The translations under genes were made by a program, and so were the position numbers. Below are positions 24,253-33,755 of a DNA stretch of 64,000 nt, one piece after another. This stretch comes from Candidatus Altimarinota bacterium (lineage in GTDB: Bacteria; Patescibacteriota; Gracilibacteria; BD1-5; UBA6164). The stretch spans positions 1 through 64,000 of the forward strand of contig JAQVGG010000005.1 in NCBI GenBank assembly GCA_028696815.1, in the 5' to 3' direction. The notes beneath the pieces were generated by a model. That model saw only the letters and a list, made by a program, of their open reading frames with translations. It was not told the DNA's origin and searched no databases. Numbering within the stretch: position 1 is the first letter of the stretch; each line of letters opens with the position of its first letter.

Positions 24253-24280
24253 TTGACAAAATAAAGAAGTTCTCTATATT
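24253..24280 (+). promoter_or_regulatory. Promoter of the CDP-alcohol phosphatidyltransferase island
   Basis: TTGACA (24253-24258), 16-base spacer, TATATT (24275-24280), about 44 bases upstream of the start. Confidence 0.7.
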
Positions 24281-24323
24281 GTAGTCACCTGAAACAAAAA
24301 CCAAAATGTTAGTGAGGTGAAGC

Positions 24324-25022
24324 ATGAACTTCTTGATTGAAGTAGGCGTAAGCCTAATGATAGTTGCTTCTGTGCTTTACCTCTCATACGTGGTAATTCC
24401 CAGAAGTGAAGTAGTAAAGCAGTTTTTCCTAAAAAACCAAAACTGGCTATCTCCAAACCACATAAGCTCCTGGCGTATGTGGGGTGGCACTCCGACTATT
24501 TTAGTTTTTCTTTACGGAGTATATATTGGAAGTGACTTAATTGTTTATCTTTCAATATGGGTTTATGTGTTCCTTGCAATAACAGATGTACTTGATGGAG
24601 TAGTAGCAAGAGCATATGGACTCTCAAGTCCACAAGGAGCAAGACTTGATGCTGGAGCAGATAAATGGTTTGATCTACCAACGCTTTTTTTTCTGAGTGC
24701 GATCCCAACACCTGAACCAATTTATCTGATAATTGCAATAGGAATTGCAGTGCCAGATATCATTGGTCAAAGTATCAGGGGTAGAAGTTCTCCTCCCGAA
24801 GCAGGAATAGTTGGGAAAACAAAAACAACTGTTAAGTTTATCGTGATTTATCTGATGAGCTTAACACATAGGTATCCAGAAATATATGAAATACTTAAAC
24901 TAGAAATTGTAATTGTTGCACTCTTGCTTTCAGCCCTTATACTGGCATGGATGTCAATGGGGATGAAAACCAAGTGGTACAACGAATACGCAAGAAAATA
25001 CATTAAGGAATACCTGATTTGA
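24324..25022 (+). CDS. CDP-alcohol phosphatidyltransferase family protein in a standard-code island
   Basis: A 232-aa integral membrane enzyme that would transfer a phosphoalcohol from CDP-diacylglycerol in phospholipid synthesis. The signature D-G-x2-A-R-x8-G-x3-D-x3-D is exact (DGVVARAYGLSSPQGARLDA then GAD) near residues 92-115. All fifteen or so Gly are GGN and none is TGA. The start has a strong Shine-Dalgarno (GAGGTG). It ends at TGA 25020-25022, directly followed by a G+C-rich terminator. In code 25 that TGA would be read as Gly and translation would run 15 more codons to TAA at 25068-25070, through the hairpin. It is clearly an import from a standard-code genome. Confidence 0.9.
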   Translation: MNFLIEVGVSLMIVASVLYLSYVVIPRSEVVKQFFLKNQNWLSPNHISSWRMWGGTPTILVFLYGVYIGSDLIVYLSIWVYVFLAITDVLDGVVARAYGLSSPQGARLDAGADKWFDLPTLFFLSAIPTPEPIYLIIAIGIAVPDIIGQSIRGRSSPPEAGIVGKTKTTVKFIVIYLMSLTHRYPEIYEILKLEIVIVALLLSALILAWMSMGMKTKWYNEYARKYIKEYLI

Positions 25023-25023
25023 G

Positions 25024-25056
25024 AGGCAGACCCGCAAGGGTCTGTCTTTATTTTTA
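25024..25056 (+). terminator. Terminator of the imported gene
   Basis: GGCAGACCC-GCAA-GGGTCTGTC then TTTATTTTT. It starts two bases after the TGA, so a Gly read-through would translate it. Confidence 0.88.
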
Positions 25057-25116
25057 CATCAAAAATTTAATATCCATGTAATATGACATATATAATATAT
25101 ATCTTAGTACTTAAAT

Positions 25117-33676: not shown

Positions 33677-33755
33677 GCGGGGGTAACATAAAAGAGTGAG
33701 TGTACTAAGGCTTCAACCCTTGGGTGTGCGAGTTCAAACCTCGTCCCCCGCTCCA
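33677..33755 (+). tRNA. tRNA-Gly with anticodon UCA (reads UGA)
   Basis: Acceptor GCGGGGG/CCCCCGC, discriminator T then encoded CCA. D stem ACAT/GTGT, anticodon stem TAAGG/CCTTG with loop CTTCAAC (T33, anticodon TCA, A37), T stem GCGAG/CTCGT with loop TTCAAAC. G1-C72, C2-G71, G3-C70 and U73 are tRNA-Gly identity elements, and there is no long variable arm as in tRNA-Sec. This is the decoder that makes UGA glycine. The D-loop (AAAAGAGTGA) lacks the usual GG pair, which is odd. Confidence 0.95.

Follow-up and report, generated by a model that had tools for sequence, protein, structure and literature searches.

It has often been suggested that recoding stands in the way of gene exchange. Two described systems bear most closely on a gene that ends, inside a recoded genome, at a codon which no longer means stop. 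In code-11-compatible phages predicted for Gracilibacteria and Absconditabacteria, backup stop codons reportedly lie close behind TGA (PMC10746230), and in recoded Escherichia coli a foreign gene ending at a former stop codon is subject to tmRNA rescue and degradation (PMC6207430). The gene described here, found in a window of 64,000 nucleotides (the whole stretch of DNA that was analysed), belongs to a clade of genes from recoded bacteria that are TGA-free and can be read in code 11.

The gene, its signals and its host

The open reading frame (24324-25022, forward strand, 232 codons) was identified from its match to PF01066 and its codon counts as a CDP-alcohol phosphatidyltransferase gene (PgsA-type) that is free of TGA and closes on TGA (25020-25022, forward strand), a stop in the standard code and glycine in that of the host. 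Upstream lie a promoter-like TTGACA-N16-TATATT (24253-24280, forward strand; 11/12 consensus positions, a consensus match only) and the Shine-Dalgarno sequence GAGGTGA (24314-24320, forward strand), 3 nt from the ATG at 24324. The Shine-Dalgarno sequence is complementary to TCACCT at 24285-24290, and a leader hairpin, TCACCT/AGGTGA (24285-24320, forward strand, z -2.25), could pair it. An upstream in-frame ATG..TGA (24306-24323, forward strand), whose TGA at 24318 falls inside the Shine-Dalgarno sequence, reads as a 4-codon mini-ORF in the standard code and as an N-terminal extension (MLVRGS) in code 25, where the frame opens at ATG 24306. Rfam detects no riboswitch in this leader or in that of the NhaD gene described below. 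An exact 13-nt sequence, CTGAAACAAAAAC (24289-24301), of which 0.02 matches are expected in the window, is common to the leaders of this gene and of its 35%-identical homologue in genome G014; both leaders follow TTGACA, with -35/-10 spacing alike.

Behind the gene, folding predicts an intrinsic terminator hairpin with a T-rich tail (25022-25057, forward strand), its stem (25022-25049) having 12 pairs, -22.2 kcal/mol and z -4.4. The first in-frame code-25 stop, TAA at 25068-25070 (forward strand), is past this terminator. The protein ends in ..KEYLI before TGA 25020; reading that codon as glycine adds G and EADPQGSVFIFTSKI (16 residues together) before the TAA, and would give a TGA-spanning peptide ..KYIKEYLIGEADPQGSVF.. 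(..KEYLIGEADPQ..).

Glycine is encoded in this gene by GGA (8), GGT (3), GGC (2) and GGG (2), never by TGA, whereas TGA accounts for 743/1121 glycine codons across the window and for 67% of the 11,829 in the 646 kb of sampled stretches of the window's own genome (G000) from which the host codon figures are taken. Given host usage, the chance of 0/15 is about 6e-8. The G+C content of the gene is.38 (regional value.26) and its GC3 is.31 (about.14 in the host), so that foreign composition and the lack of TGA-glycine codons, the two marks expected of an imported standard-code gene, are found together. On a fine scale, GC rises near 24260-24300 and falls near 25060, and the foreign-looking piece therefore barely exceeds the gene, its leader and its terminator. 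Among 455 sampled ORFs of the host genome with at least 8 glycines, only three on host-coded contigs are both TGA-poor and raised in GC3: this gene, an NhaD gene and a C39-like peptidase gene. The remaining clearly TGA-poor ORFs on such contigs are mostly highly expressed and have host GC3; for the window gene, avoidance of TGA driven by expression is ruled out by its GC3 and its use of GGC and GGG.

The NhaD-type Na+/H+ antiporter gene (contig C28, 13214-14629; GC.44, no TGA-glycine codon, stop TAG) encodes a protein with 63-65% identity to the plasmid-borne NhaD of Sulfuricella and Thiothrix, and the C39-like peptidase gene (C17, 19167-19814; GC3.27, stop TAA) has 0/16 glycines as TGA. Four small AT-rich contigs of the same assembly (C3, C23, C27 and C33), which carry HpaII-like restriction-modification, FtsZ-like, sugar biosynthesis and unidentified genes, have almost no TGA-glycine codons and are either contaminants or code-11 elements.

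That the host cell reads TGA as glycine is supported by several observations. A tRNA-Gly(UCA) with a glycine-type acceptor is encoded at 33677-33755 (forward strand; ARAGORN goes by the anticodon and calls it SeC) and has GCGGG...CCCGCTCCA, in the acceptor stem and 3' end, in common with tRNA-Gly(UCC) of the same genome. The only class-I release factor found in the host is RF1-like (HRVQRIPETES), and its own gene uses 11 TGA codons as glycine, while no match to RF2 above a prfB cut-off that ten control bacteria pass was detected in ten genomes of the host's GTDB family (f1). With tRNA-Gly(UCA), RF1 only and TGA at glycine positions, the genome has all the features of a code-25 host, and TGA 25020 should therefore be glycine. 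A tmRNA, whose tag ends in APAFALAA, is also present; a second match to the tmRNA model (C5, 117-562, 71 bits) was not confirmed by ARAGORN.

An earlier note, made from the sequence alone, had described about fifteen glycine codons, all GGN, in a gene with its own promoter, a good Shine-Dalgarno sequence and a TGA end followed by a terminator, and had held that in a cell with tRNA-Gly(UCA), as this host should be, that TGA would add Gly and 15 residues before TAA 25068. The codon count (15 GGN, 0 TGA), the position of each signal, the translation and the decoding genes (tRNA-Gly(UCA), RF1-like only, no RF2 detected) bear this description out.

Relatives, neighbourhoods and gene ends

Relatives of the window protein are encoded by 14 of the 48 genomes of the host family, in which PF01066 genes have a patchy distribution (19/48). 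The closest (58-60% identity) come from three species of genus g5, on host-coded contigs; the others belong to five g4 species, to g15, to g16 and to a further g5 species, G070. All are TGA-free, and the in-frame TGA codons for glycine that, according to the earlier note, would speak against import if close relatives had them are not present in any. Within the family, 13/21 PF01066 genes are TGA-free, against 5/279 of the remaining sampled ORFs that have 8 or more glycines, and TGA-coded PF01066 genes occur in genera g6, g8 and g10. In the phylogenetic tree, 12 TGA-free genes (g1, g4, g5, g15, g16) form one clade (support 90/95), with TGA-coded genes from g10, g8 and another family, f2, as its sister group (96/85). 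Other Patescibacteria and IMG/VR sequences fall outside these two groups; the IMG/VR matches, distant and placed in other parts of the tree, were ruled out as close kin or donor. The gene tree conflicts with genus assignment, as the window gene groups with the three g5 species and G070, itself of g5, with g4. A distant, further TGA-free phosphatidyltransferase gene is intact in G019 (g20), and its copy in the sister species G028 (L107, 2725-3348) is broken by an in-frame TAA.

The comparison with standard-code homologues that the earlier note had proposed yielded no standard-code close relative in any collection searched: phages and plasmids (tblastn), viral_contigs (protein search and alignment), the class (353 genomes), the phylum (380 genomes) and one genome_contigs close-relative scan, this last together with the phage, plasmid and viral collections making up the donor sampling beyond Patescibacteria. 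Within that limited sampling outside the phylum, the closest relatives are Gracilibacteria that read TGA as glycine rather than standard-code organisms, and the TGA-free clade is known here from such bacteria alone.

In five g4 species the gene occupies one syntenic site beside genes that we take, from sequence recognition rather than family search, to encode an M3-type peptidase and a uracil-DNA glycosylase. The three g5 species have it at the same site, and genome G015 (g16) has it in the same neighbourhood. Within g4, identity is 71-85% for the gene and mostly 73-85% for its neighbours (92% in one pair). The shared syntenic site indicates that the g4 and g5 copies were vertically inherited within each genus; with a TGA-free clade spanning at least five genera and passed on vertically in two of them, the picture of a one-off recent arrival does not hold. 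The window copy sits elsewhere, flanked by genes for a DUF2238 protein and a response regulator, and the host's own M3 locus has no copy. In G015 and G014, DUF2238 genes occur without an adjoining phosphatidyltransferase gene, among other neighbours than those in the window; no relative showed an empty site flanked by the two genes that adjoin the window copy.

In g4 and g5, neighbouring genes have exchanged TGA for GGN or the reverse at as many as roughly a third of the glycine sites that a species pair has in common, whereas the phosphatidyltransferase gene shows zero such swaps over the same time. Under a five-state codon model fitted to the neighbours, this has P = 2e-3 in g4 (1.5e-2 under the most favourable rooting) and P = 1.7e-4 in g5. 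A cruder column comparison gives P = 2e-5 (g4) and 6e-4 (g5), which overstates the case, TGA having been the starting state of some mixed columns; both procedures assume a uniform rate, with no rate variation across sites. The G070 copy has host-level GC3 (.10) and yet 0/11 glycines as TGA, the proportion being 75-91% in its three nearest neighbour genes. Slow rewriting after import is strained by this lack of TGA gain in the vertically inherited g4 and g5 copies and in G070, although the G070 copy could stem from an AT-rich standard-code source. As far as such sequence-based rates can tell, TGA-freeness in two genera has outlasted what the host mutation rate predicts.

The ends of ten clade copies can be read. 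Five are TGA (the window gene, G015, G029, G021 and G004) and five TAA (G022, G030, G003, G035 and G067). In the window gene, G015, G029 and G021 the next TAA or TAG comes only past the terminator, the TGA of G015 forming part of the terminator stem; in G004 a TAA follows soon after the TGA, in the hairpin loop. G029 and G021 have kept a homologous TGA though four of the preceding residues differ. The bases after the five TGA ends (GAG, AGA, GAG, GAA, TTT) have no evident common signal, and a conserved functional C-terminal extension was ruled out, the sequences beyond the TGA being without evident likeness. GC3 in the clade spans.43 (foreign) to.10 (host-like), with no TGA-glycine codon at any point of this range. 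This persistence of TGA-freeness and of TGA ends is more interesting than import itself.

The predicted enzyme

The window protein belongs to PF01066 (66.1 bits, Pfam gathering score 22; E 6e-18) and has the complete CDP-alcohol phosphotransferase motif D-x2-DG-x2-AR-x8-G-x3-D-x3-D, in which D88, D91, G92, A95, R96, G105, D109 and D113 are invariant in 11 aligned members. The pgsA model matches 11/11 of these members, and the best solved-structure match of the profile is PgsA (PDB 7drj, E 6e-17); the window protein differs from the PgsA family in having about 40 additional residues at the N-terminus. It scores 46.2 bits against the TIGR00560 equivalog, below the cut-off of 109.1, and is for this reason named PgsA-type rather than PgsA. 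Its predicted structure (mean pLDDT 56) is too poor for fold comparison. A CDP-diacylglycerol synthase (PF01148) was not found in the host genome or in most of the gene-carrying genomes, so that the enzyme probably acts on scavenged lipid precursors such as CDP-lipids, or uses CMP in the reverse direction to exchange head groups. The CMP-dependent reverse reaction is known chemistry of the CDP-alcohol phosphatidyltransferase family. The clade also suggests that, in bacteria regarded as incapable of lipid synthesis, enzymes for lipid head groups are regained through transfer.

A cytidylyltransferase-family (CdsA-like) gene in G014 (C2, 1498-2247, minus strand) has 0/18 glycines as TGA and GC3.32; the TGA-free phosphatidyltransferase gene of that genome lies elsewhere in it. 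Another TGA-free gene (0/21) in a TGA=Gly genome (L106, 6704-7606) has a metallo-beta-lactamase fold and matches the Anti-Pycsar Apyc1 model.

Origin of the gene and fate of its terminal TGA

It seems reasonably probable to us that a single-gene cassette was imported from a pool of genes readable in code 11, TGA 25020 being a relic stop now read as glycine. In the course of events that we infer, from the direction of transfer and the donor to expression, read-through and rescue, a cassette of about 24275-25050 (promoter, PgsA-type gene and terminator) would have been acquired by lateral transfer, probably in the fairly recent past, from a pool written to be readable in code 11, which itself most likely goes back to a standard-code bacterium richer in G+C. 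TGA 25020 would be the leftover stop of that source, most likely read as glycine in this host, the ribosome running on through the terminator stem. Since the terminator stem and its T-rich tail come before TAA 25068, a transcript that the terminator brings to an end has no in-frame code-25 stop, and the likeliest problem at the gene end is that termination of transcription yields a non-stop mRNA, the product of which would be tagged by tmRNA. Where transcription passes the terminator, by chance or because a ribosome reading through TGA would invade the stem and might suppress termination, the product would gain 16 residues and stop at TAA 25068. The earlier note, right about the conflict of codes, had reckoned with read-through or continued termination, but its two outcomes left out this non-stop mRNA.

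The standard-code import that the earlier note had asserted thus stands in part. It agrees with the foreign-looking codon usage and GC3, the patchy homologues, the conflict between gene tree and genus, and the position of the window copy away from the g4/g5/g16 locus, with the host's M3 locus empty and no phosphatidyltransferase gene next to DUF2238 in G015 and G014. The cytidylyltransferase-family gene of G014, as would be expected of a jointly imported lipid pair, and NhaD as another foreign-looking gene in the window's genome point the same way, and fit a picture in which genes for lipid and transport functions have been captured repeatedly from bacteria with the standard code. Against import stand the missing donor, with all closest relatives in TGA=Gly genomes, the TGA-coded Gracilibacteria genes as sister group, the precise insertion not seen in relatives, and a TGA-free state that in g4 and g5 lasts longer than a post-import lag predicts and that G070 keeps at host-level GC3. 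The kinship with TGA-coded sisters in g10, g8 and f2 would suit a gene native to the order that has few TGA codons by chance or expression and was never transferred, as would the common locus of g4, g5 and g16 and the avoidance of TGA by highly expressed host genes (EF-Tu, L7/L12, S1). Those genes keep a low GC3, though, whereas the window gene does not and uses GGC and GGG; with its different locus and the P value for 0/15, native descent appears improbable. A contaminant fragment joined into the contig might be suspected from the 6% contamination of the MAG and from the small contigs almost devoid of TGA-glycine codons, but the gene is complete with promoter and terminator, host-coded sequence resumes within about 150 bases on both sides in a 65 kb contig, and homologues of 58-60% identity lie on host-coded contigs of three related species, which leaves such an artefact very little credence.

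The persistence of the TGA-free state speaks for selection keeping the gene readable in both codes, TGA-freeness then being adaptive rather than a relic. All 12 clade members, from at least five genera, are TGA-free, as are 13/21 PF01066 genes against 5/279 other ORFs; vertically inherited g4 and g5 copies have gained no TGA while their neighbours exchanged TGA and GGN, and the G070 copy has stayed TGA-free even when fully AT-equilibrated. Among predicted Gracilibacteria phages over 20 kb, 34/38 are reported to be not clearly alternatively coded (PMC10746230). But the rate model leaves out site-rate variation and re-import, GC3 in g4 is still short of equilibrium, no copy on a mobile element, phage or plasmid was found in the collections searched, and four TGA-ending copies without a code-25 stop before the terminator are ill suited to a code-25 cell. 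We hold dual readability under selection to be rather unlikely, and its narrower form, in which the gene must work in or pass through standard-code cells (host or prey) and at times has a TGA stop heeded by standard-code ribosomes alone, to be quite unlikely. The TGA ends would be explained otherwise if TGA still terminated here, through a context effect or an unrecognised factor, as the TGA ends near the right C-terminal position in 5/10 homologues and the TGA kept by G029 and G021 despite changed preceding residues might suggest. With RF2 undetected in ten genomes, 11 TGA codons as glycine within the RF1 gene, TGA as the main glycine codon of the host and no evident common signal after the TGAs, we find this highly improbable, and retain import with a relic stop.

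Whatever its origin, the clade offers, within recoded genomes, a natural series of a single gene type that varies in end and composition. With it one can test whether read-through and non-stop mRNAs are tolerated by recoded cells, at what pace foreign genes are rewritten and whether some genes are maintained in a form that both codes can read.

Like the genes of the phages predicted for Gracilibacteria and Absconditabacteria, those of the clade lack in-frame TGA and are readable in both codes (PMC10746230). Unlike them, the window gene is chromosomal, single and without phage context, and it has, like the copies in G015, G029 and G021, no backup stop before the terminator. The likeness to UAG-ending genes in recoded E. 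coli is that a foreign gene ends at a non-stop codon, for which tmRNA rescue is to be expected (PMC6207430). There UAG is unassigned, whereas TGA is an assigned sense codon in the window's host, so that translation would continue into the terminator.
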